NCBI RefSeq assembly: GCF_018304965.1
Contig: NZ_JAGQED010000024.1
Location: 1-64,000 of the forward strand
Source of the DNA: Collimonas antrihumi
Lineage (GTDB): Bacteria; Pseudomonadota; Gammaproteobacteria; Burkholderiales; Burkholderiaceae_D
DNA length: 64,000 nucleotides
Reading direction: 5' to 3'
Part shown: positions 4,353-54,207 of the stretch, in pieces
Position numbering within the stretch: the stretch's first letter is position 1
Layout of the letters: each line of letters opens with the position of its first letter
The notes under the pieces: generated by a model
What the model saw: only the letters and a program-made list of their open reading frames with translations
Told to the model about the DNA's origin: nothing
Databases searched by the model: none
Translations under genes and position numbers: made by a program

Positions 4353-4489
4353 AAGATAGGGAAATCGAGAAAATTCGGTGAATTCTTTAGCAAAAGGCGC
4401 TGCAAAAGCGGCAAAAACGCCTGGATTCGGTCAGGAGACGATTATAAACGACGCCAACAAGATGCGCTTAAAGATATGCCTCGCGGCGC

Positions 4490-5641: not shown

Positions 5642-5779
5642 TATCAGCATTACAGCATTACTTGCTTATTTTTTACCCGAATATATTTTGAATGATGGTG
5701 CTGGAAAACTGATGATTGGGCGCACTGTACAGCGGTGACCAGGTCGGCAGAACAGCATCAACTGAGCTAGGAGAATAGT

Positions 5780-6661
5780 ATGGCGGCAATTACAGCAGCA
5801 CTGGTAGGCGAACTGCGCGCAAAGACTGATGCGCCTATGATGGAATGCAAAAAAGCGCTGACCGAAGCTGGCGGCGACATGGACAAAGCAGAAGAAATTC
5901 TGCGCGTAAAACTGGGTGGCAAGGCTTCCAAGGCTGCTTCCCGTGTTACAGCTGAAGGCGTAGTTGCAGCTTATATCGCCGGCGGCGTTGGCGCCCTGGT
6001 CGAAGTTAACTGCGAAACCGATTTCGTTACCAAGAACGACGATTTCCTGGGCCTGGCAAATGCTTGCGCCAAGCTGGTCGCAGAAAACAACCCTGCAGAC
6101 GTAGCTGCCTTGTCGGCTCTGCCACTCGACGGCAGCACCGTTGAAGCAACCCGTGCTGCCTTGATCGGCCGTATCGGCGAAAACATGTCGATTCGTCGTT
6201 TCACACGTTTTGACACTACTGCCAAGCTGGTTTCCTACCTGCACGGCACACGTATCGGCGTGATGGTTGAGTTCGACGGCGCTGACGAACAAGTCGGTAA
6301 AGACGTAGCCATGCACATCGCTGCGATGAAGCCGGTTTCGTTGTCGTCGGATCAAGTACCTGCCGATCTGATCGAAAAAGAGCGTTCGGTAGCAACCTTG
6401 AAGGCAGCTGAATCCGGCAAGCCGGCAGACATCGCAGCCAAGATGATTGAAGGTTCGGTACAGAAATTCCTGAAGGAAGTTTCCCTGCTGAACCAGACTT
6501 TCGTCAAGAACGACAAGCAAACTGTTGAGCAAATGCTGAAGGCAACTAACACCAGCGTTAAATCGTTCACCATGTTTGTAGTCGGTGAAGGCATCGAGAA
6601 GAAACAAGATGACTTCGCTGCAGAAGTTGCAGCGACGGTTGCTGCGGCCAAGCAGGCGTAA
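5780..6661 (+). CDS. tsf: Translation elongation factor Ts
   Basis: EF-Ts exchanges GDP for GTP on EF-Tu. At 293 aa it has the normal length. The N-terminal UBA-like domain carries [16 protein letters not shown], and the core domain has [14 protein letters not shown], the EF-Tu contact motif containing TDFV. A good Shine-Dalgarno (TAGGAGA) precedes ATG 5780. The gene ends 8 bp before a strong terminator. Confidence 0.98.
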
Positions 6662-6669
6662 GCAAGAAT

Positions 6670-6693
6670 ACGGGCCGAAAGGCCCGTTTTTTT
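6670..6693 (+). terminator. Rho-independent terminator after tsf
   Basis: A perfect ACGGGCC / GGCCCGT stem with a GAAA tetraloop is followed by seven T. It closes the rpsB-tsf unit. The remaining gap to pyrH (6694-6909) has no gene I can support. Confidence 0.9.
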
Positions 6694-6909
6694 GGTTCTG
6701 AGGAATTTTCTTCCCAGGCCAAAGACTAAGGAATGCCCTGAATCTCCGCTCCATATCCGGCGCGGGGGAAGTCGCAGGAATCGGCGCCGATTATTCTAAA
6801 TCGCGCTGATAGTGGATTTTGCTGCGGTTTGGCCTGACAATGGCGCTGCAGTCCAGGCATTGACCAATACAAATGTGAATCAATCGGAAAGCCACAAGGG
6901 GCCCAGACC

Positions 6910-7626
6910 ATGACAAAACCAGCTTATAAGCGTGTTCTCCTGAAACTCTCCGGTGAGGCCCTGATGGGCGATGACGCCTATGGCATCAATCGGGCGACGA
7001 TCGACCGTATGGTTGCCGACGTCGCCGAAGTGGCCGAGTTGGGCGTTGAACTGGCGATCGTGATCGGCGGCGGTAATATTTTCCGCGGCGTAGCGCCGGG
7101 CGCCCAAGGCATGGATCGCGCCACCGCCGACTATATGGGAATGCTGGCAACCGTGATGAATTCGCTGGCATTGGCAGACGCCATGCGGCAAAAAGGCCTC
7201 ACGGCCCGTGTCATGTCGGCGATCAGCATCGAACAGGTAGTCGAGCCTTATGTGCGGCCTAAAGCCCTGCAATATCTGGAAGAAGATAAAATTGTCATCT
7301 TTGCAGCGGGTACCGGCAATCCGTTTTTTACAACCGATACTGCAGCGGCATTGCGCGGTTCGGAAATCGGCGCGGAAATCGTCTTGAAGGCGACCAAGGT
7401 TGATGGCGTGTATAGCGCAGATCCAAACAAGGATCCAACGGCAACCCGCTATTCGCACATCACTTTCGATGAGGCGATCACCAAGCATCTGCAAGTCATG
7501 GATGCCACCGCATTTGCCCTGTGCCGCGACCAGAAACTGCCGATCAAGGTATTCTCCATCGTCAAGCCGGGCGCGCTGAAGCGGGTCATCATGGGTGAAG
7601 ATGAAGGTACTTTGGTGCACGTTTAA
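6910..7626 (+). CDS. pyrH: UMP kinase
   Basis: Phosphorylates UMP to UDP in pyrimidine nucleotide synthesis. This is the bacterial hexameric amino-acid-kinase-fold enzyme, unrelated to eukaryotic UMP/CMP kinase. The 238-aa product shows the N-terminal [13 protein letters not shown], the glycine-rich [12 protein letters not shown], and the uridine-site region with [16 protein letters not shown]. The family length and its place between tsf and frr agree. Confidence 0.98.
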
Positions 7627-35210: not shown

Positions 35211-36791
35211 ATGCACTCAAAAATCCTCATCCTCGATTTCGGCTCCCAGGTAACCCAACTGATCGCACGGCGCGTGCGCGAAGCTGGCGTGTTTTCTGAG
35301 GTTTATCCTTACGACGTGTCCGACGAGTTCATCCGTAACTATGGTGCTGCCGGCGTGATCTTGTCGGGCGGCCCGAATAGCGTCACCGACGGCGATACCC
35401 CACGTGCACCGCAAGCAGTATTCGAGCTTGGCGTGCCGGTGTTCGGCATCTGCTACGGCATGCAAACCATGGCCGAGCAACTGGGCGGCAAGGTCGAGAT
35501 GGGCAAGGTCCGTGAATTCGGGTACGCCGAAGTCCGTGCGCGGGGTCATACAGCGCTGCTGAAAGATATCAGCGATTTCGTCACACCCGATTCGCACGCC
35601 ATGCTGAAAGTCTGGATGAGTCACGGCGACAAGGTCAATGAAATGCCGCCAGGCTTCAAGCTGATGGCATCGACCCCGAACTGCCCGGTCGCCGGCATGG
35701 CCGACGAAGAGCGTAAATTCTATGCGGTGCAGTTCCATCCGGAAGTCACCCACACCGTGCAAGGCGAAGCGATCCTGACGCGCTTTGTCATCGATATCTG
35801 CGGCTGCACACCAGACTGGAACATGCCGGACTACATCGCCGAGGCGGTTGAGTCGATCCGCAAGCAAGTCGGTAGCGACGAAGTAATCCTGGGTTTGTCC
35901 GGCGGCGTTGACAGCAGTGTCGCCGCAGCCCTGATCCATCGCGCCATCGGCGATCAGCTGACTTGCGTATTCGTCGACCACGGCCTGTTGCGCCTCGACG
36001 AAGGCAAGATGGTCATGGAGATGTTTGCCAAGAATCTCGGCGTCAAGGTGATTCATGTCGACGCCACGGCACAATTCATGGGCCACCTGACCGGCGTCAC
36101 CGATCCGGAAGCGAAACGCAAGATCATCGGCCGTGAATTCGTTGAAGTGTTCCAGGCCGAATCGGCCAAGCTGAAGAATGCAAAATGGCTGGCGCAAGGG
36201 ACGATTTATCCAGACGTGATCGAAAGCGCCGGCAAAGGCAAGAACGCCGCGCACACCATCAAGAGCCACCACAATGTCGGCGGCCTGCCGGAAACCCTGA
36301 ACCTGCAATTGCTGGAACCGCTGCGCGAATTGTTCAAGGATGAAGTGCGCAAGCTGGGCGTCGCACTCGGTTTGCCGCATGCGATGGTGTATCGCCATCC
36401 GTTCCCTGGTCCGGGTTTGGGTGTGCGGATCCTGGGGGAAGTCAAAAAGGAATTCGCCGACCTGCTGCGCCGCGCTGATGCCATCTTCATCGAAGAGCTG
36501 CGCAATACCAAGGACGACGAGGACGAGTCCTGGTACGACAAGACCAGCCAGGCGTTTGCGGTGTTCTTGCCGGTCAAATCGGTTGGTGTGATGGGCGATG
36601 GCCGTACTTATGAATACGTGGTTGCCCTGCGTGCAGTGCAAACGCAGGATTTCATGACCGCGCATTGGGCGCATTTGCCGCATGAGTTGCTGGGGCGGGT
36701 GTCTAACCGCATCATCAATGAGGTGCGTGGCATCAATCGTGTGGTGTACGATATTTCCGGTAAGCCGCCGGCGACGATTGAGTGGGAATGA
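35211..36791 (+). CDS. guaA: GMP synthase (glutamine-hydrolysing)
   Basis: Aminates XMP to GMP. The 526-aa protein has the class I amidotransferase domain with catalytic Cys in [17 protein letters not shown] and His-Glu in FHPEVTH. The ATP pyrophosphatase P-loop is [16 protein letters not shown]. The C-terminal dimerisation domain ends [17 protein letters not shown]. The last codons form a known integration target for genomic islands, and a tyrosine integrase gene follows, so the intact 3' end has probably been rebuilt by the insertion. Confidence 0.98.
36777..36787 (+). other. Candidate left attachment site (attL) at the guaA 3' end
   Basis: ATTGAGTGGGA spans the last codons of guaA (Ile-Glu-Trp-Glu-stop). 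The same 11 bases recur in the same orientation at 54,197-54,207. The 3' end of guaA is an established island integration site, and an integrase gene starts 312 bp away. Core boundaries are a guess from a two-copy match. Confidence 0.55.
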
Positions 36792-37005: not shown

Positions 37006-37098
37006 CAAAATTCAATAAACTGTTTGTAATCAGTAAGTTGCATTGTTTTGTCGTGCGATTTTCGATCATGGTATTTCTTGCCTAAGAGGAAGGAAGCC

Positions 37099-38307
37099 AT
37101 GCTCACTGATACCAAGTTGCGCAACCTGAAGCCGACAGAGAAACTTTACAAAGTGAACGACCGCGACGGCCTTTATGTAGCCGTCACCACCGGCGGGTCG
37201 ATCTCCTTTCGCTACAACTACTCGATCAACGGCAGGCAGGAAACCATCACCTTCGGGCGCTATGGCGTAGGCGGTATTACCTTGGCGGAAGCCCGCGAGC
37301 AGCTGGGCGAAGCCAAGAAGATGATCGCCGGCGGGAAGTCGCCGGCGAAAGAGAAGGCGCGGGACAAGGCGCGCACCAAGGACGCCGAGACGTTTGGAGC
37401 CTGGGCGGAAAAATGGCTGCGTGGCTACCAGATGGCCGACTCCACCCGCGACATGCGCCGGTCGATTTTCGAGCGCGAGTTGAAGCCGAAATTTGGCAAT
37501 CAAAAGTTGATCGAAATCACCCACGAAGACTTGCGAGCATTGACCGATGCCATTGTGGAACGGGGCGCTCCGGCGACAGCAGTACATGCTCGTGAAGTGG
37601 TGTTGCAGGTCTATCGCTGGGCCATCGAACGGGGCCAAAAGGTCGAGAATCCGGCCGAGCTTGTGCGCCCGACGACCATAGCCAAATTCGAGCCGCGTGA
37701 CCGTGCGCTGACGCCTGATGAAATCGGGCTGATGTACCAGTACATCGAGCGCATTGGCACCACGCCATCGATCCGTGCGGCGGCGAAGTTGCTGCTGTTG
37801 ACGATGGTCCGCAAAAGCGAGCTGACAAATGCGACGTGGAGCGAGATCAATTTTAGCGAGGCGCTGTGGACGATCCCAAAGGAGCGGATGAAGCGGCGTA
37901 ACCCACACCTGGTATTCCTGTCGCGCCAGGCGCTGGACATCTTCATTGCGTTGAAGACTTTTGCCGGCGGTTCGGAGTATGTGCTGCCGTCTCGGTACGA
38001 TTCTGATACGCCAATGAGCAGCGCGACACTCAACCAGGTGCTGACGCTGACGTACAGGCTGGCGCAGAAGGAAGGAAAACCACTCGCCAAGTTTGGGCCG
38101 CACGATTTGCGGCGAACGGCCAGCACGCTACTGCATGAGGCCGGCTATAACACCGACTGGATTGAGAAGTGCCTTGCGCACGAGCAGCGGGGAGTGCGGG
38201 CGGTTTACAACAAGGCCGAGTACCGGGAGCAGCGCACAGCCATGCTTCAGGATTGGGCCGACATGATTGACGAATGGGCGATCAAGCGGCCACGGCCGGC
38301 GGAGTGA
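37099..38307 (+). CDS. int: P4-type tyrosine integrase
   Basis: Site-specific recombinase that would integrate and excise the element at guaA. From ATG 37099 (after AGGAAGGA) it is 402 aa. The N-terminal DUF4102-like arm-binding domain has MLTDTKLRNLKPTEKLYKVND (about 1-90), and a core-binding domain covers about 100-190. The catalytic residues appear in order: Arg in MVRKSELTNATW, HxxR in GPHDLRRTAST, His in LAHEQRGVRAVY, and the nucleophile Tyr in the following YNKAEY region. It points away from guaA. Confidence 0.95.
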   Translation: MLTDTKLRNLKPTEKLYKVNDRDGLYVAVTTGGSISFRYNYSINGRQETITFGRYGVGGITLAEAREQLGEAKKMIAGGKSPAKEKARDKARTKDAETFGAWAEKWLRGYQMADSTRDMRRSIFERELKPKFGNQKLIEITHEDLRALTDAIVERGAPATAVHAREVVLQVYRWAIERGQKVENPAELVRPTTIAKFEPRDRALTPDEIGLMYQYIERIGTTPSIRAAAKLLLLTMVRKSELTNATWSEINFSEALWTIPKERMKRRNPHLVFLSRQALDIFIALKTFAGGSEYVLPSRYDSDTPMSSATLNQVLTLTYRLAQKEGKPLAKFGPHDLRRTASTLLHEAGYNTDWIEKCLAHEQRGVRAVYNKAEYREQRTAMLQDWADMIDEWAIKRPRPAE

Positions 38308-38515
38308 ACCCTGGACGTATTGGCTGGGCGCTTGATGACTTTCTCGACTCGATCCATTCCTCGATTTCGGCCAAATCCCAGGCTACGTTCCGGCTGGTGA
38401 GCACGATACGACGCGGGAAGTCGCCACGCTGTTCCATGTTGAAAATGGTTCGCTCCGAAAGCGGAATCATCGCCAGCAGCTTTTTTCGATTGATCAATGT
38501 CTTTTCTTTCCGCAT
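38282..38515 (-). CDS. AlpA-family HTH regulator / excisionase-like protein
   Basis: A 77-aa protein with an AlpA/MerR-like winged helix: KLLAMIPLSERTIFNMEQRGDFPRRIVL, then WDLAEIEEWI. AlpA-type proteins on P4-like islands act as excisionases or activate int. The gene converges on int, overlapping its 3' end by 26 bp. Its promoter region contains the left 57-bp inverted repeat. Confidence 0.88.
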   Translation of the reverse strand: MRKEKTLINRKKLLAMIPLSERTIFNMEQRGDFPRRIVLTSRNVAWDLAEIEEWIESRKSSSAQPIRPGFTPPAVAA

Positions 38516-38544
38516 TTCGTCTCATCCTTCCTGTTGATGCCAGA

Positions 38545-38601
38545 GGATGCCAAGGGATGCGGCATGCTTAAACTTATTAAGTTTTCAAAATGGTTGACAT
38601 G
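38545..38601 (+). repeat. 57-bp inverted repeat, left copy
   Basis: Runs from GGATGCC to GACATG and matches the reverse complement of 39,680-39,736 at 54 of 57 bases. It contains the near-palindrome AACTTATTAAGTT and, on the outward strand, a TTGAAA that could be a -35 for alpA. The two copies bracket the 340-aa gene, and each also sits upstream of an outward-facing gene. Confidence 0.9.
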
Positions 38602-38619
38602 AAGATTGCAGCGCAAAAG

Positions 38620-38639
38620 CGATGCGTGTACACGCATCG
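38620..38639. promoter_or_regulatory. Perfect 20-bp palindrome (site 1 of 3)
   Basis: CGATGCGTGTACACGCATCG is fully self-complementary, just inside the left 57-bp repeat. Near-copies occur at 44,292-44,311 (one position off) and 47,527-47,541 (core plus one arm). It looks like an operator for a dimeric regulator carried by the element. Confidence 0.65.
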
Positions 38640-38668
38640 TAATGAACTCTGCCAGGAGCGATTACACC

Positions 38669-39691
38669 TCAGTTGGCAACTTGGCAGTGAAGATCTAGCC
38701 GATAGTCTGCATGAATGGATTGAAGGGCTTTGGAAATTGCTTGGCGCGACTTCAGTCCAAGTTGTTTCGCTGCTTCAATCTGAGTTATTCCTGAACATAA
38801 GAGCGCAACAATTTCCTTTTTCCGATCAGTCATGCGTCGATCTACCATCATGCGGGCTTCCCATCGTAACTTTGTTTCGAGCGTGCCTAACTTTTCTGAA
38901 TGTTGCTCATGAGTTAAGCGACGATGTACTGACAGTCGCCAAATAAACTCATCTACCAGTGGATTCCCCGATTTTGCGTATGCTGATTTGATTCCCGCCC
39001 AGCTTTGGAAATCGAGTCGCTCCAATTCTTGGTCGAAAGCCCCTTGGCTCCGCCTCGCCTTTTGGTATTTTCCGCCAACCGCGTCAGAAAGCACCTTCTT
39101 GGGCTTATGTGCGCTGCAATAGAGCGAACTACGACCCAAGCCTGAGTCGTCGTCATTGGCGAGGGCTACTGCAAGCTCCGTCAGCTGGTCGCAGTACCGG
39201 CACTTTTCCTTGCCCGGTAATAGCCTCACTTTTCCCAGCCGCTTGGGCTGCTTCGTTCTGCAAGCAATCGCCAGCTCGCGCAGGCTGTCTAGTGTCGGGA
39301 TTAGGTCGATATCTCTCTCTGCGGCATTGCGTGCGACCGTTTTGAGAAACCAATCAAGCTCGTTGAAGCCAAGATATTGTGCCAGCAGGCTTGGTGGAGA
39401 TGCTCCCTTCAAGGGCAATTCCTGGCAACTCTGTTGGCCGCGGAAAGCTCGCCCATTCTGGTATCGCGCCCAAGCCTGATTCAATTTTTCGCAACTCAAT
39501 GCAGATGTGCGCTGGCAGAAGTCGAACCACACAGGGTCGAGCTGCTCGCGTAGTAGCCGAAAAATCGAAAAGCGACGCGATTTTGCCGAGTACGGCCCCC
39601 ACGCCTGTATGACGGCGTTGATAGCTTCCTCCACATCAGAATCACAGCCCGACCAGATCGTGATTGCTGTCGTCTTCGTCATGTCAACCAT
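38669..39691 (-). CDS. Unrecognised protein with zinc-finger-like motif and C-terminal HTH
   Basis: A 340-aa protein I do not recognise. Around residue 165 a CRYCDQ pair and then YCSAHKP suggest a CxxC...CxxH zinc site. Near the C-terminus (about 293-320) IVALLCSGITQIEAAKQLGLKSRQ looks like a LuxR/sigma-like helix-turn-helix. Start is ATG 39691 or 39682, both inside the right 57-bp repeat. It may be the regulator that binds the flanking repeats, which is inference from position. Base composition is more AT-rich than the surrounding genes. Confidence 0.6.
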   Translation of the reverse strand: MVDMTKTTAITIWSGCDSDVEEAINAVIQAWGPYSAKSRRFSIFRLLREQLDPVWFDFCQRTSALSCEKLNQAWARYQNGRAFRGQQSCQELPLKGASPPSLLAQYLGFNELDWFLKTVARNAAERDIDLIPTLDSLRELAIACRTKQPKRLGKVRLLPGKEKCRYCDQLTELAVALANDDDSGLGRSSLYCSAHKPKKVLSDAVGGKYQKARRSQGAFDQELERLDFQSWAGIKSAYAKSGNPLVDEFIWRLSVHRRLTHEQHSEKLGTLETKLRWEARMMVDRRMTDRKKEIVALLCSGITQIEAAKQLGLKSRQAISKALQSIHADYRLDLHCQVAN

Positions 39692-39736
39692 TTTGAAAAC
39701 TTAATAAGTTTAAGCATACCGCATTCCTCGGCATCC
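39680..39736 (-). repeat. 57-bp inverted repeat, right copy
   Basis: Reverse-complement partner of 38,545-38,601 with three mismatches. It carries the start codons of the 340-aa gene on the minus strand. On the plus strand it lies about 50 bp upstream of the small HTH gene that leads the trfA unit. Confidence 0.9.
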
Positions 39737-39786
39737 TGCAGCAATCGACCGCACGTTACGCAATCTTACGCAAGGGATGGGAAATC

Positions 39787-40008
39787 ATGACTATGGAAGA
39801 GAGTTTGGTTGAGCGTTTTGGGCCTTTGATCCCGCTGTCAGGGCTTGCCGTCCTGCTTGACCGCTCGCCGGAAGCCGTGCGGATGTTTCTCCGCACAAAT
39901 AGCGAACTGGCACAGCACATCAACACTGCCAAGGTGAAAATCGGTCGCCGGTTGTTTTTTCGGACATCGGACATCGCTCAGTTCTTGAGCCGCGACTTCA
40001 AGCAATAA
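39787..40008 (+). CDS. Small helix-turn-helix protein upstream of trfA
   Basis: A 73-aa protein: LIPLSGLAVLLDRSPEAVRMFLR followed by KIGRRLFFRTSDIAQFLSR has the layout of plasmid-associated winged-helix (AlpA/excisionase-like) regulators. It is 13 bp upstream of trfA and probably autoregulates or controls replication. ATG 39787 and ATG 39793 are both possible. Confidence 0.65.
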   Translation: MTMEESLVERFGPLIPLSGLAVLLDRSPEAVRMFLRTNSELAQHINTAKVKIGRRLFFRTSDIAQFLSRDFKQ

Positions 40009-40021
40009 GCGAGCGCTACTC

Positions 40022-40906
40022 ATGACCTTGCGTTCGGTAGGCGATGCTTTGCCTTCAAGTCGCACCGACCTTCTGGCGCTTGTCCAGGGCATGGCGGAGC
40101 GTGCGAAGGGTAAGCCACGGGCACAGGAGCCGCCGAAGCAACCTATCGCCGTGCAGCTCCCTCTGTGGGGCGACGAAATCCGCTGCATGCCGAACGAAAT
40201 CCTGCGTTCCGCGCTGTTCAACGCGAGGAATCGCAATCAGCCCCGGCGCTACTTCAAAAACGAAACGATTGCGATCATTGACCAGTCGGCGCGCATCAGC
40301 TTCACCGGGGAAGAGCTGCGCCAGACCGATGAATCGGTATGGCTGCAACTGATTCACCTGGCAAAAGAGGTGCCAATCGGCCGTCCGGTCGAGTTCACCG
40401 CGTACAGCATGGTCCAGGCGCTGCGGCTCACCAGGTCAAAGCCGAATCCGGGTCACATCGAGCGCTTGTGCGAGAGCCTGCGGCGCATGCAAGCGACATC
40501 CCTGGCGATCCATTCCAAACGCCTGGCGCGTGGCGTGAGCCTGTCCATGATCCCGAAATTCGAGTGGCAGGACGAGGCGACCGGCGCTCGATTGCCGAAG
40601 TGGCGCGTATTCATCGCACCGGAAATGGTCGAGCTGTTCGGCGACGTGCATTTCACGCATCTGCAATGGACGCAACGGCTCGCGCTGCCCACCGGCGTCG
40701 CCACCTGGTTACACGGCTACCTGGCCTCGCACCGCGAGCCGGTGCCGGTCAAGTTGGGCACCTTGCAGCGGGGATGCGGCTGCACTACCGAAACGCCGCG
40801 CAAATTCAAACAGCTGGTTGTCACAGCCCTGGCCGAGCTGGTCCATGTTGGCTTCCTCAAGCATGGCGAAATCCGGGGCGAACTGGTGCATACGGAGCGG
40901 CTATGA
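40022..40906 (+). CDS. trfA: TrfA-family plasmid replication initiator
   Basis: A 294-aa protein resembling the TrfA initiator of IncP (RK2/RP4) and related plasmids, which binds iterons and loads host replication proteins. Family-like segments include NEILRSALFNARNRNQPRRY, IDQSARISFTGEELRQTDE, and the C-terminal winged helix QRLALPTGVATWLHGYLASH. A run of iterons starts one base after its stop, the expected arrangement for an initiator next to its origin. Confidence 0.85.
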   Translation: MTLRSVGDALPSSRTDLLALVQGMAERAKGKPRAQEPPKQPIAVQLPLWGDEIRCMPNEILRSALFNARNRNQPRRYFKNETIAIIDQSARISFTGEELRQTDESVWLQLIHLAKEVPIGRPVEFTAYSMVQALRLTRSKPNPGHIERLCESLRRMQATSLAIHSKRLARGVSLSMIPKFEWQDEATGARLPKWRVFIAPEMVELFGDVHFTHLQWTQRLALPTGVATWLHGYLASHREPVPVKLGTLQRGCGCTTETPRKFKQLVVTALAELVHVGFLKHGEIRGELVHTERL

Positions 40907-41005
40907 ACTACCGACCTATGGAGTACGCCCGCGCACCGCCACTACCGACCTTTGGAGTACGCACTACCGACCTATGAAGTACGGACTACCGACCTATGGA
41001 GTACG
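40907..41005 (+). repeat. Iteron array, putative replication origin
   Basis: Four direct repeats of ACTACCGACCTATGGAGTACG (21 bp, one or two mismatches) begin at 40,907, 40,941, 40,963 and 40,985. The last three have a 22-bp period, two DNA turns, typical of initiator-bound iterons. The following 41,006-41,153 is more AT-rich (GTTAACCATGTTTTAACCATATATTTAACC), a plausible unwinding region, and leads into trbJ. Confidence 0.85.
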
Positions 41006-41153
41006 CCCCAAATCGCCGAAACCCGCATCAGGCTTGTCTTTCCGGCGAATTCGACGGGTCGTTAACCATGTTTTAACCATATATTTAACCCCGGCACCTG
41101 TGGACAACCTTCAGCCGAACCACAAGCCGGATGACACCAAAAAGGAAAAGCAA

Positions 41154-49153: not shown

Positions 49154-49972
49154 ATGACCAATAAGACCACCTGCTTCGACGTGTTCGAGCAATGCGTGTT
49201 AGCCGTACAAGCCGGGGAGCTGATCGAATCCGTATCCGCCAAGGACAAAGAATTTCACTTCCAAAACTGGTTTCAGCAGCGTCTGCAAAAGCTCGCGCTC
49301 CACTTCGAGGGGTCTGGTCGCAATACCTACCCCGACTTCTGCCTGGTCGAGTACACCGAGGGCTACGAAATCAAAGGGCTTGCATGGCCTGGCCGCGAGA
49401 AGGATTATGATTCGAACAGTCAGGTGCCGACCGGCTACCACAACGGCCGCCAAATCTTCTACGTGTTTGGCCGATACCCGGCTGACCTCTCTGTCTATGC
49501 CGACCAGAGCAGCGGTCGAAAGCAGTATCCTGTCGTTGACCTCGTGGTGTGTCACGGCGATTTCCTCAACGCCGACCATAACTATGTCCACAAGAACAAG
49601 AGCGTGAAGGGCTTTGGAACCTACGGGGACATCATGATCCGTGACCGGAAGATGTATGTCGCGCCCACACCATTTGCGTTGACTGAAGGCACCACGGGCC
49701 TGATGACCCTGATTCTGCCGGAAAACTTCGACACGGATGAACGCTACCAGGTGGTGGGCAACCTCACTCGTGTCGAGGCCGAGACACTGGTGGTTGGCTA
49801 CAACTTCGACCTACGCACGAACGAACTGCGTGCAGAGCGCGTGCCAAATCCCAGCGCAGGTACTCAGCACCGATTCGTGGCGTACCGTCTCAAGGGCCAG
49901 ACCAGCAAGCCTGTCGCAATGACCGGCACTCCTGTTCTGCCCGATGAGAACAACCAGCCGGACGAAGAATGA
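49154..49972 (+). CDS. PD-(D/E)xK nuclease-like protein of a defence cassette
   Basis: A 272-aa protein. The segment YPDFCLVEYTEGYEIKG (residues 59-75) has the PD-(D/E)xK nuclease pattern: Pro60-Asp61 and Glu72-x-Lys74. Upstream FHFQNWFQQRLQKLAL and downstream YVFGRYPADLS with VVDLVVCHGDFLN fit a restriction-endonuclease fold. Its stop overlaps the methyltransferase start (ATGA), so I infer a restriction-modification pair. No close family name is recognised. Confidence 0.7.
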   Translation: MTNKTTCFDVFEQCVLAVQAGELIESVSAKDKEFHFQNWFQQRLQKLALHFEGSGRNTYPDFCLVEYTEGYEIKGLAWPGREKDYDSNSQVPTGYHNGRQIFYVFGRYPADLSVYADQSSGRKQYPVVDLVVCHGDFLNADHNYVHKNKSVKGFGTYGDIMIRDRKMYVAPTPFALTEGTTGLMTLILPENFDTDERYQVVGNLTRVEAETLVVGYNFDLRTNELRAERVPNPSAGTQHRFVAYRLKGQTSKPVAMTGTPVLPDENNQPDEE

Positions 49973-52137
49973 ACACCATCACCGATAAGATCGGGCTTTC
50001 TCATGCGTCCGTCGCGACTGCACTGGAGTGCGACTTCCCACTGGTCGAGATTAGTCAGATCGCCGAGCAGGAAAGCTGGCGAAAGGAGATCAACCGGCCG
50101 ATTTACCACATCCACAAGTGGTGGGCGACCCGGCTCGGGTCGGTGTTTCGGGGCATCACGCTCGGGGCGTTGAGTCAGCCTGGCACGGACACCTGGGCGC
50201 AGTTTTATAAGACGCACGACCTGGCCGGGAAAGTGGTGCTCGATCCCTTTATGGGCAGCGGCACCACGCTCGGCGAGGCTGTGAAGCTCGGGGCAAAGGC
50301 CATCGGCTGCGATATCAACCCTGTCAGCACCTTCCTTGTCCGTCAGGCGTTCACACCGGCGTCGGAGGCTCAACTTCGGGCCGCTTTCGAGCGGCTGGAG
50401 CGCGACGTGGCCCCGGAGATTCGCCGCTACTACCAGACCCGCGATCCGCAGACTGGAGAGTTGATTCCCGTGTTGTACTATTTTTGGGTCAAGACAGTAA
50501 CGACTTCAGAAGGCGAGGTGATCCCACTCCTGTCGCGCTACGTTTTTTCCCAGGACGCTTACCCGAAGAAGAAGCCGCGAGCGCAGATTGTGTGCCCTGG
50601 CTGCTGGGGCGTGCTGGAGGATCGCTACGACGCAACCGAACTCCAGTGCCAGCACTGCGGCCATCAGTTCAACCCGCAGGAAGGTCCAGCCGCTGGACAG
50701 TACGTCACGACTAAGGGAGGCCAGCGCTACCGTATCAAGGAGCTGCTGCCCAAAGACGGCGCGCCGCCGCATCGTATGTACGCAATGATGGCGCTGCGCG
50801 CAGACGGCTCGAAGGTCTATCTACCTGTGCGTGACGAGGACTTGGCGCTCAACGAGGCAGCACAGGAACGACTTGCCAGCGAGACATTACCCTTGCCAGA
50901 AACTGGCGTTCGATCTGGTCACAACACTGACCAAGCGCGTGGTTACGGCTACACGCGGTGGCGTGACTTCTTCAATGCACGTCAATTGCTGTGTCTCGGC
51001 CTACTGCTGCGGGAAATCCTCCGCATCGACGACCTTATGGTGCAAGAGCAAATGCTTTGCCTATTCTCCAGCACCTTGGAGTTCAACAACCTGTTTTGCA
51101 GTTTCAAGGGTGAGGGCACTGGAGCTGTCCGGCATATGTTCTCGAATCACATCCTGAAGCCCGAGCGCACGCCGCTTGAAAACTCAGTGTGGGGCACCGA
51201 CAAGAGCAGCGGCACTTTCTGTACCTTATTTGAGTCGCGGCTGTTGCGCGCCAAGCGCTATCTTGATGAACCCTTTGAGATTGAATTCGTGTACGACTTA
51301 ATGGGTGACCGTGTAGGCTCTCGCAAGACAATAGCCAGCAACCCAATCAAGGCGCGCCGCGTCGAGACATGGGCTGAACTGAACGCGGCCGATCATGGTC
51401 TGCTGATCCTGAACGGCGATAGCTCCAAACTGCCAGTGCCTGCAGGGTCGGTGGATGCGGTTGTGACCGACCCGCCGTACTTCGACTTCGTTCATTATTC
51501 CGAGCTGAGTGATTTTTTCTTCGCTTGGCTGTCGCCAGTGCTGCGCGACCGCTACCAATGGATGGCCCGCGAGGACTCGTCAGACCAAGGCGAAGTACAG
51601 CACAAAGACCCCCGCGTGTTCGCGCGACAGCTTGCCGCCGTGTTCACCGAGGCGTGTAGGGTGCTCAAGGACGATGGTGTACTGGCGTTCAGCTTCCATC
51701 ACTCGCGGGCCGAGGGTTGGGCTGCGATCTACGAGGCGATTAACAAGTCGGGGCTGGCTGTGGTGGCTGTACACCCTGTACATGCCGAGCTGCGCGCAGC
51801 GAGTCCCAAGACGGCCGCGAAAGACCCAATCAGCCTCGATGCGATCCTCGTCTGTCGCAAAAGGGCTTTTGCACTCCACAAGCCGCCTGTCGTTCGGGAT
51901 GTTCGCACGGCCGTCGATGCAATGTCGGCCCGGCTGCAATCCGCTGGCATGTGCATCTCGGCCGGTGATCGCTTCGTGATTGGCGCGGCGCTGACTTTGA
52001 TCGCTCGTGCGGCCGATGACCTGAGCTTCGACGGCATTAAGATGGATCTCGACGCCATCCGCCTAGCCGTTGGGCCAAAAGCTGGCGAAGCTGACGACGA
52101 GTCGGTGATCACGGACGCCGAACTGGTGACTGTGTGA
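49969..52137 (+). CDS. DUF1156-like N6-adenine DNA methyltransferase
   Basis: A 722-aa methylase. Residues 20-66 (FPLVEISQIAEQESWRKEIN...HIHKWWATR) resemble the DUF1156 N-terminus of methylases found in defence systems. The SAM motif DPFMGSGTT is at 92-100. A zinc ribbon CPGC...CQHC lies at about 208-229. The catalytic DPPY is at 501-504 (VTDPPYFDFVHYSEL), and SFHHSRAEGWAAI and DAILVCRKR follow. It probably protects host DNA or marks targets for the linked nuclease. Confidence 0.85.
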   Translation: MNTITDKIGLSHASVATALECDFPLVEISQIAEQESWRKEINRPIYHIHKWWATRLGSVFRGITLGALSQPGTDTWAQFYKTHDLAGKVVLDPFMGSGTTLGEAVKLGAKAIGCDINPVSTFLVRQAFTPASEAQLRAAFERLERDVAPEIRRYYQTRDPQTGELIPVLYYFWVKTVTTSEGEVIPLLSRYVFSQDAYPKKKPRAQIVCPGCWGVLEDRYDATELQCQHCGHQFNPQEGPAAGQYVTTKGGQRYRIKELLPKDGAPPHRMYAMMALRADGSKVYLPVRDEDLALNEAAQERLASETLPLPETGVRSGHNTDQARGYGYTRWRDFFNARQLLCLGLLLREILRIDDLMVQEQMLCLFSSTLEFNNLFCSFKGEGTGAVRHMFSNHILKPERTPLENSVWGTDKSSGTFCTLFESRLLRAKRYLDEPFEIEFVYDLMGDRVGSRKTIASNPIKARRVETWAELNAADHGLLILNGDSSKLPVPAGSVDAVVTDPPYFDFVHYSELSDFFFAWLSPVLRDRYQWMAREDSSDQGEVQHKDPRVFARQLAAVFTEACRVLKDDGVLAFSFHHSRAEGWAAIYEAINKSGLAVVAVHPVHAELRAASPKTAAKDPISLDAILVCRKRAFALHKPPVVRDVRTAVDAMSARLQSAGMCISAGDRFVIGAALTLIARAADDLSFDGIKMDLDAIRLAVGPKAGEADDESVITDAELVTV

Positions 52138-52147
52138 GGACCGGTTG

Positions 52148-52246
52148 ATGCTAGACATCTTCTGCAGACGCGAACGCTGGAAACCGGAAAAGCTGCTCGG
52201 TATGGGTAGCGGTTACGCGCTGAATTTCTCCGACCACATGGGCTAA
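52148..52246 (+). pseudogene. 32-codon remnant between methylase and OLD genes
   Basis: ATG 52148 reads MLDIFCRRERWKPEKLLGMG and 12 more residues to a TAA at 52,246, 2 bp before the OLD start. The residues look like a structured protein N-terminus rather than random sequence. A third cassette gene may therefore once have followed the methylase and been deleted down to its first codons. It could also be an intact leader peptide for the OLD gene. Confidence 0.35.
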
Positions 52247-52248
52247 TC

Positions 52249-53970
52249 ATGAAGCTACGTGCAATCCAGATTCACAATTTCCGTTCGGTACTTGATGCGG
52301 ACGTGGAAGCGCACGACTACATGCTGTTGGTCGGTGCAAACAACGCGGGCAAAAGCACAATCCTCAACGCGCTGCGCGCCTTCTACGACGACGCCAAATG
52401 GTCAACTGAGGATTTTCCCAAGGCTGGGGCGACTGACAATGAATCATGGGTGCAACTCAAATTCCACCTTGACGGTGACGAGTGGGCTGGCCTGGCCGAT
52501 GAATACAAGGAGGGTGTGACCGACCAGAGTCTTATGGTTCGTCGCTACTTCAAGTCCGATGACAAGGCTCGAATTCAGAAAGATCAAAGCAATATCTTTG
52601 GTTTCGTAAAAGGACAGCTCAACGACGCTCTGTTCTATGGTGCGAAGAATGTAGGGACTGCCAAGGTCGGGCAGGTGCTTTACGTGCCAGCACTGACCAC
52701 GCCAGCCGAGCAGACGAAGATGAGCGGCCCTTCACCGCTTCGCAATATGCTCAACTTTCTGTTGAAAAAGGTGGTGTCCAAGAGCGATGCCTATAAGGAA
52801 ATCACTACGGCGTTTGAGAAACTGAACGTCGAGGCCCGCAAAGATGATGGATTCCTGAGCGAGATTTCCAAGCCGCTCAATACGGCAATTTCAAGCTGGA
52901 GTATCAAGATCGACCTCTCGGTGAACTCGGTCGCGCCCGAGGATATTTCGAAGTCCCTGGTCAAATTTGCTTTTGTCGATTCGTCGCTGGGAGATATTAG
53001 CTTTGATCTTGAGCGCTACGGGCACGGCTTCCAGCGCTCGGTGATCTATGAGCTGATCCGTTTGGCGCCGACCTTCAAGGATGAAAAGAAGGCCGACAAA
53101 AAGGAATTCAACCCGTCGTTTAACCTTGTGCTGTTTGAGGAACCCGAAGCGTTCTTGCATCCGAGTCAGCAGGAAAGTATGGCATACCATCTGCGCCGAC
53201 TCGGGGCAGAAGAGGGGCAGCAGGTCATCATAACCACCCATTCGCCAACATTTGCTGGGAAGGCCGCCGAACAGATTGGGCAAATTGTCCGTGTCCAGCG
53301 CTCTAACGGTGCAACGCTGACCTTCCAGCCCAAGGGAGTCAAGATCAAGGAAGTTTTCGACCAAGGCGGCGATCTGTTGGCGGCGTTGCAAGCCTTTGTC
53401 GCCGATGTGGGCATACAGGATGACCGGAAAAAGAACGCCAGGAAGATGATCGCTAACCCGCCGCAGGGCGATATCGCGACTCAAGAAGAGCAGTTCCGCT
53501 TCCAGCTCTGGCTTGATGGTGAACGTGCATCACTGTTCTTTGCCGATAAGGTGCTCTTGGTCGAGGGGGCTACGGAGCGCGGGCTGTTCAATTACCTGCT
53601 GGCCAACGACTGGCACGACCTAAGTGCGCAGCACATCTGTCTGGTTGATGTTCTCGGTAAGTACAACTTCCATCGCTATATGGCACTAATGGAAGCTTAT
53701 GGTATCCCGCACGGCGTCATGCTGGACGATGACAACGGCAAGGAACACCAGGGTGCTGTGAACGATCTGGTAGAGGCATGCGCGAACGGTCATACGCTCG
53801 CCGCGCCTGTGAAGTTCACGGATTGCTTGGAGACGTTCTTAGGTTTGCCGGTGCCTGCGAAGGAAAGGAAACCCATCGAAATTCTCAAGGCAATCATTGG
53901 CGGGCAAATTGCGGCCGACAAGTTACAAGCCCTCCGAGCCGAGTTCTGTAAGGCATTAGCAATCGCTTGA
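52249..53970 (+). CDS. OLD-family ATPase with TOPRIM nuclease domain
   Basis: A 573-aa overcoming-lysogenisation-defect (OLD) type protein. Walker A GANNAGKSTILNALRAF (about 29-45); Walker B FNLVLFEEPEAFLHPSQQ (about 295) with an ABC-like tail VIITTHSPTFAGKA. A C-terminal TOPRIM domain begins VLLVEGATERGLFNYLL (about 434), with MLDDDNGKEHQGA as the acidic metal motif. OLD nucleases act in phage defence, often with a partner. Here the neighbours are a nuclease-like protein and a methylase instead of a UvrD-like helicase (Gabija). Confidence 0.88.
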   Translation: MKLRAIQIHNFRSVLDADVEAHDYMLLVGANNAGKSTILNALRAFYDDAKWSTEDFPKAGATDNESWVQLKFHLDGDEWAGLADEYKEGVTDQSLMVRRYFKSDDKARIQKDQSNIFGFVKGQLNDALFYGAKNVGTAKVGQVLYVPALTTPAEQTKMSGPSPLRNMLNFLLKKVVSKSDAYKEITTAFEKLNVEARKDDGFLSEISKPLNTAISSWSIKIDLSVNSVAPEDISKSLVKFAFVDSSLGDISFDLERYGHGFQRSVIYELIRLAPTFKDEKKADKKEFNPSFNLVLFEEPEAFLHPSQQESMAYHLRRLGAEEGQQVIITTHSPTFAGKAAEQIGQIVRVQRSNGATLTFQPKGVKIKEVFDQGGDLLAALQAFVADVGIQDDRKKNARKMIANPPQGDIATQEEQFRFQLWLDGERASLFFADKVLLVEGATERGLFNYLLANDWHDLSAQHICLVDVLGKYNFHRYMALMEAYGIPHGVMLDDDNGKEHQGAVNDLVEACANGHTLAAPVKFTDCLETFLGLPVPAKERKPIEILKAIIGGQIAADKLQALRAEFCKALAIA

Positions 53971-54117: not shown

Positions 54118-54207
54118 CATGGTATTTTTCATGGCATCACATGGGGCGGTAAGTGCGAAAGCCCCGCCGTTATTGGTTTTTTTTCGGTAATTGATAATTG
54201 AGTGGGA
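54118..54207 (+). other. Candidate right attachment region (attR)
   Basis: Within the gap 53,971-54,253, CATGGTAT (54,118) and CATGGCAT (54,130) repeat the motif clustered near attL. ATTGAGTGGGA (54,197-54,207) repeats the guaA 3' end in direct orientation. A weak GGGGC/GCCCC hairpin with an eight-T run lies at 54,143-54,180. Nothing coding is supported in the gap. Confidence 0.5.

Follow-up and report, generated by a model that had tools for sequence, protein, structure and literature searches.

In the window (the whole stretch of 64,000 nucleotides analyzed here), an island is inserted at the 3′ end of guaA. A motif search found GAGTGGGA in the guaA 3′ end (36780..36787, + strand), which is the probable attL core, and the second GAGTGGGA on the same strand (54200..54207) is inferred to be the probable attR. 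Since the sequence lies at the guaA end and occurs again at 54200, the island is inferred to be probably about 17.4 kb in size. GAGTGGGA is the core given for guaA islands in two reports (PMC9376610, PMC7775301). The island agrees with the known guaA islands in its insertion at the 3′ end of guaA with this core at both ends, as judged from the sequence without circular-form data, and in an alpA gene that adjoins the integrase gene. The latter gene, for a tyrosine integrase, comes after guaA (37048..38307, + strand; start codon uncertain; Pfam Phage_integrase, 3.9e-22) and has close relatives in related guaA islands. The alpA gene (38282..38515, − strand; Pfam Phage_AlpA, 7.7e-13) encodes a probable excision factor, a role inferred from GIsul2. 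For that island, PMC9376610 states that overexpressed AlpA supplied more circular form and that integration was not significantly changed by alpA deletion.

The replication unit, on the + strand, begins with a gene for a 73-aa HTH protein (39787..40008; weak match to Pfam HTH_17, 0.017), which is followed by trfA (40022..40906; Pfam TrfA, 3.4e-42). With this TrfA-type initiator the island has what marks the IncP TrfA replicons; the replication of the excised circle is inferred. Four 29-nt direct repeats with start spacings of 34, 22 and 22, found by a repeat search just after trfA (40902..41008, + strand), are possibly the iterons of an oriV, a function that is likewise inferred. As for the rest of the island, conjugation-type genes were recognized by eye, and the cargo at 49154-53970 contains a DNA methyltransferase gene (PADLOC DUF1156_MTase, 1.8e-25), a 272-aa ORF without a PADLOC match and a 573-aa ORF that by eye has the look of an OLD-type ATPase. 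This cargo is possibly a defence unit.

Between alpA and the HTH gene lies an ORF of 340 aa on the − strand (38669..39691), hereafter referred to as the regulator, and two inverted arms enclose it. The first-pass annotation had described two inverted copies with 54 of 57 identical positions (38545-38601 versus 39680-39736) that flank a zinc-finger/HTH-like gene, each copy lying upstream of an outward gene. All of this was confirmed, the outward genes being alpA on the left and HTH-trfA on the right. The full arms are 62 nt each and match at 58 of the 62 positions. The left arm (38544..38605, + strand) is upstream of alpA and is referred to as the OL region; the right arm (39676..39737, − strand), the OR region, is located between the regulator and the HTH gene and overlaps the regulator start. 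The same 26-nt motif forms the cores of OL (38573..38598, + strand) and OR (39683..39708, − strand), and both cores score 36.8 (36.3 for OL under a stricter grouping, with the matrix taken from the right sites of other islands). In the window, the regions upstream of alpA and HTH have an inverted score of 55 with each other, as compared with a maximum of 20 among 246 background windows of the same size in the surrounding 16 kb. No further arm copy was found in the window at up to 24 mismatches to the 62-nt arm, nor, at E ≤ 0.001, any copy beyond the two arms in the whole genome (4,722,432 bases, 83 contigs).

The regulator carries a zinc-type CxxC and YCxxH and a C-terminal HTH, as seen from the ORF, the alignment and profile searches. 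Its true start is probably the second ATG, at 39682, which gives 337 aa, because an in-frame stop precedes that ATG in one relative (L061) and another (L057) has TTG for the first ATG. The CxxC and YCxxH residues are invariant in 13 aligned relatives, and the family identity is 33-58% among 12 relatives aligned with the window regulator. The C-terminal HTH is weakly detected in the window regulator (Pfam HTH_3, 0.071; PHROG HTH, 0.0054). In the relatives it resembles sigma region 4 (NCBIfam TIGR02937 in 10 of 13 members, best 3.8e-08), a family that the window's own regulator did not match at 0.01, and the family profile resembles the LuxR-type response regulators (E 0.003). The library scans gave neither a curated full-length family nor a CI or Peptidase_S24 match for the regulator; its HTH matches were to several generic families. 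The predicted fold is confident only in parts (mean pLDDT 78, pTM 0.47), and a Foldseek search of the PDB with this model found no match below E 0.9. The 340-aa protein used as a lone query found no relative in the genome contigs collection, and no relatives of the regulator occurred in the plasmid collection at 1e-5. One regulator relative (L038, 7254-8411) has an extra N-terminal stretch which, by eye, looks like the helix-turn-helix of IS3 OrfA.

The best probe for related islands was an alignment of the 73-aa HTH protein, whose relatives were found at 47 loci in the genome contigs; loci from the genome search were added. After the duplicates were removed (L062 duplicates the L029 stretch, and L127 that of L063), the order int, alpA, regulator match and HTH was found in 26 islands including the window. 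These are 25 distinct sequences, L026 and L048 being different assemblies that are identical over 2370 nt. The strands agree in all 26: alpA is on the − strand, HTH on the + strand, and the regulator match between them on the − strand. A guaA gene lies beside 24 of them (none was seen in the L051 and L053 stretches), and a rep gene for a TrfA-type protein or a RepA-like ATPase was recognized in 23 (not in L030, L058 and L059). The regulators of 23 islands belong to the window's family. Those of L029 and L063 belong to another family, related to it in the C-terminal part alone (profile probability 97.6, 107 columns), and that of L030 matched neither the window's family nor Pfam. For L029, L030 and L038, the island's own ORF served as the regulator reference; L059 and L060 match the regulator, yet next to HTH neither has an ORF of 150 aa that is intact.

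In these islands, the 261 nt on the 5′ side of alpA were compared with the reverse complement of about 170 nt on the 5′ side of HTH, with other windows of the locus as the background. The inverted score was above every background window in 17 of the 26 islands. In six others (L049, L050, L053, L054, L055 and L059), 2-13 background windows equalled or exceeded the score of the pair, and in L038, L042 and L044 the test failed. The score was at least 55 in six islands (the window, L029, L030, L057, L061 and L063), and the aligned arms were only 21-51 nt in many islands. Thus, the conservation of both copies, which had been proposed as a check on the first reading of the locus, was found in the form of paired inverted sites upstream of alpA and HTH. 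The arm sequences in the islands with other regulators are unlike those of the window; since the arms differ with the regulator type, they are not one inherited repeat. Another feature is that the arms extend into the HTH gene in L030, L057 and L061, and that alpA of L057 (start near 4364) opens with the HTH gene codons MQIEE, so that alpA here seems to have taken over a promoter and start codon that had been copied. From these two observations, the left arm is most readily understood as the promoter region of regulator and HTH, copied in inverted orientation. It was also observed that the outer arm half is common to L029 and L061 despite their different regulators; this half may belong to the HTH protein.

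The sites themselves were searched for with a 26-nt matrix made from right sites only, all islands of the tested cassette type (see below) being left out each time. This test took 23 of the 26 islands, with L029, L030 and L063 excluded for their other regulators. A first grouping by hand, with L059 kept apart, gave ranks 1-3; the repeat used the cassette types of the exchange analysis. The left site ranked second in 18 and third in 5 of the 23 islands among the 6,340-32,002 positions of each. Rank 1 was the right site, and where the left site was third, rank 2 was a third site. The left sites scored 11.4-36.3, and they were found also in L038, L042 and L044, which had failed the pairing test. 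Apart from the left, right and third sites, the highest score was 10.5, close to the weakest left score. This hit, in L038, lies some 250 nt ahead of another HTH match, which in turn stands before a DUF5338 match, and it is perhaps a weak third site. Among the 12 control loci without the regulator family, the maximum with the full matrix was 8.1. The controls comprised the three islands of other regulator types, six loci that have int and alpA and lack the module, two loci with alpA and rep on one strand and without such a regulator, and L129, which has another regulator.

The core had been called near-palindromic in the first-pass annotation. In the window this is correct, the palindrome (AAACTTA-T-TAAGTTT) being perfect about its centre base; however, it is not common to all islands, and the conserved part of the site is a TATTA-like block and an invariant GTTGAC. 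The GTTGAC occurs in all 23 left regions, where no gene was recognized, and the ATG found after it in the right site persists in the left region of the window alone; therefore, GTTGAC is not merely a coding relic. Relatives of the regulator family also occur beside another integrase type, with the right site only (L074, 29.2; L028, 18.7; L031, 14.3), and no site was found with the family relatives outside guaA islands in L043, L039 and L040. Since the non-guaA relatives show no alpA match, they are uninformative on the pairing.

The third copy of the motif was found in nine islands, about 2.6 kb to the right of HTH and upstream of a DUF5338 match; the motif scan placed it at 8550 in L045, 8596 in L046, 8604 in L047, 8597 in L048, 8596 in L049, 8532 in L053, 8509 in L054, 8613 in L055 and 8603 in L056. 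All nine islands in which DUF5338 lies no more than 3 kb from HTH have it, and 19 of the 26 stretches extend that far. NikA-like or relaxase matches come after DUF5338 in eight of the nine, and the L054 stretch ends too soon. The DUF5338 matches in L038, L052 and L060 are further off, and no clear third site was found there. The window has no third site, its next score being 6.5. The position of these sites suggests that in the islands concerned mobilization may be under the same control.

The number of sites was also compared between layouts. In three stretches from IMG/VR (L091, at 5711-6969, L093 and L094), the regulator is opposite to alpA and rep, which are on the same strand and 24 nt apart, and there is no HTH match. 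One site lies between the regulator and alpA (30.7), the next best scores being 5.0 to 7.8. The three are near-identical in score and therefore count as one case. In the IMG/VR stretch L089, where the layout is split, both sites were found (36.8 and 17.4); L090 and L092 end at the match and were left out of this comparison. As far as these sequences go, one outward unit would have one site and two units two sites. The use of L091, L093 and L094 as evidence against pairing was dropped, as alpA and rep share one strand opposite the regulator there. Another arrangement is seen in the plasmid-borne L095, which has a guaA-type integrase (88%): alpA and repA are on one strand, 4 nt apart, and the 26-nt motif was not found in it. 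In both L095 and L130, alpA adjoins a repA-like gene on one strand, a hint that excision and replication functions belong together.

For the analysis of exchange, the cassette was defined as the segment between the starts of alpA and HTH, and 325 island pairs were compared; these pairs share members and are not independent. In 91 pairs, both flanks have a DNA identity of at least 90%. Within these 91, the cassette was diverged or unrelated (less than 80%, or under half aligned) in 62, the same (at least 94%) in 23 and intermediate in 6. Twelve cassette types were found on ten backbones (L042, with its right flank cut at 445 nt, was counted as its own backbone), and four types occur on one backbone of 14 islands. 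The clearest group is L029, L061 and L063, whose flanks are 93-98% identical and which carry three cassette types; between L029 and L063, the identity ends 3 nt upstream of the start codon of alpA and returns at the first base of the HTH ATG. A sharp drop in identity at the cassette edges was seen in six of the eight profiled pairs and was absent in two pairs of equal type. Fast divergence could explain the pairs at 66-75%; it does not explain the change of regulator family among L029, L061 and L063. From these comparisons, the segment looks like an exchangeable cassette. This feature and the third site in nine islands go beyond what had been noted at first. The sample holds no island near-identical to the window with another cassette, and no close relative of the window was found.

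In phage lambda, the immunity region places the regulator gene between two operator regions that face outward excision and replication units. We consider it probable that the window carries a module of this kind, its regulator using OL and OR to control excision and replication jointly. The anatomy, its recurrence, the co-occurrence of the sites with the regulator family and the exchange among relatives can be read from the sequences; binding, repression, the inducing signal and immunity are inferred, as there are no binding, transcription or excision data. The first suggestion for this locus, that one regulator switches the excision factor and the replication initiator through a shared operator/promoter, is thus supported by the paired sites in related islands, on comparative grounds alone.

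The putative mechanism is as follows. Transcription of the regulator would run leftwards from the right intergenic region, and the protein would bind at two places: OR, directly next to the start codon of its own gene, and OL, the copy of opposite orientation before alpA. In the integrated state, it would most likely repress both outward units and itself, and this would block both excision, by AlpA with Int, and replication, by HTH-TrfA. When the regulator is lost, inactivated or absent in a new cell, both units would fire together, and the island would then leave and replicate as a circle. OL would have arisen when the promoter region of regulator and HTH was copied in inverted orientation, the L057 copy keeping the HTH start codon in frame with alpA. 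Finally, the regulator, OL and OR would be swapped between islands as one unit, giving different immunity types.

The regulator might instead be an activator, recruiting polymerase to both OL and OR and thereby switching on excision and replication at the same time. A scan of 38200-40100 found no sigma-70-like promoter (0 found, 1.2 expected), so this possibility is left open, and the likeness of the C-terminal HTH to sigma region 4 in 10 of 13 relatives (not in the window's own protein), as well as that of the family to LuxR-type proteins, would suit it. On the other hand, OR abuts the regulator's own start codon, a usual position for self-repression, and the exchange of a regulator with its sites is known for phage immunity repressors. 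We regard activation as unlikely, while keeping it in consideration. It is improbable that the arms serve the 73-aa HTH protein or AlpA as sites, with the regulator having another function. The outer arm half shared by L029 and L061 in spite of their different regulators speaks for such sites; nevertheless, the core tracks the regulator family: it is present in all 23 islands that have this family and in none of the 12 controls that lack it, L029, L030 and L063 being among the latter despite HTH and alpA there, and it is still found in L091, which has no HTH match.

A little less credit still is due to a phase switch, in which recombination between the arms would invert the regulator gene, expressible in either orientation. 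Both window arms carry a regulator start, ATGGTTGACATG, and their identity could allow homologous recombination. However, the left ATG after GTTGAC is peculiar to the window, the aligned arms of many islands are only the 21-51 nt given above, and the regulator match has one orientation in all 26 islands, for which reason the invertible segment was set aside. A small transposon with 62-nt terminal inverted repeats, which the inverted ends around one gene would suit, is strongly disfavoured and was set aside, since the window's genome has one such unit only, which lies between alpA and HTH at a fixed place and strand in all 26 islands, with other end sequences where the regulator differs, arms that enter the HTH gene in three of them, and no duplication in the 9 nt outside the window arms; the ends of a known transposon, which would have refuted the first reading of the repeats, were thus not met with.

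In the lambda-like module that we favour, the regulator gene lies between two like sites facing outward units (a likeness of sequence, with operator activity inferred), and related elements carry different types, the regulator and its sites having been exchanged together in the relatives as in lambda immunity. Unlike lambda, the element has int, AlpA, TrfA and conjugation-type genes (the last by eye) and is not a phage, and the regulator is not a CI-type repressor, so far as its matches go; its repressor action is inferred. The operators and immunity groups of lambda-type phages are treated in PMC6550527. Two other systems are comparable. In SXT/R391, SetR with OL and O1-O3 keeps excision and transfer silent (PMC4542580), and an element-borne regulator with several sites is common to both cases; in contrast to the window, SetR is CI-like, a single intergenic region holds all four of its sites, and its control over int and xis passes through SetCD. 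In pSAM2 (PMC3218068), KorSA/Pra and the int-xis-repSA operon form one regulator chain that sets replication and excision together; this is one operon of an actinobacterial element, whereas the window has two divergent units with copied sites. The first-pass annotation knew of no described circuit of this form. This does not hold: the kind is known from lambda, SXT/R391 and pSAM2, and single circuits over excision, transfer or replication were already known in mobile elements. For paired inverted promoter copies around a non-CI regulator, exchanged in guaA islands, no paper was found in the open literature, most subscription journals being outside the search.

A wider proposal is that conjugation-type islands evolved lambda-like immunity independently of phages: a zinc-motif/HTH regulator would silence excision, replication and sometimes mobilization, the swapping of whole cassettes, including those with unrelated regulators, would let islands escape each other, and OL would be renewed by inverted copying of OR, sometimes giving the HTH start codon to alpA. 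This is offered tentatively, as we doubt it slightly more than we believe it. If it is true, the types of immunity and their exchange, so far examined mostly in temperate phages, would also influence which islands are able to share a cell or to enter one. Some of the guaA islands, a group that Song et al. in 2012 reportedly studied, carry resistance genes (GIsul2), and how excision in the group is held silent is an open question. The authors on GIsul2 speculated that its alpA is without an efficient promoter (PMC9376610). With GIsul2 and other guaA islands, the window shares the insertion site, the integrase-alpA adjacency, a rep gene nearby and an AlpA treated as the excision factor (PMC9376610, PMC7775301); L095, taken as the GIsul2 kind and not so named in its record, is unlike the window in its alpA and repA on one strand and the lack of the motif. 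The 26-nt motif and the cassette types give direct predictions for binding, cross-regulation and co-residence. As a minor observation, the contigs of L089 and L091, listed as viral in IMG/VR, hold matches to the guaA-type integrase, alpA, the regulator and rep, and L091 also has trb-like and phage-like genes by eye.
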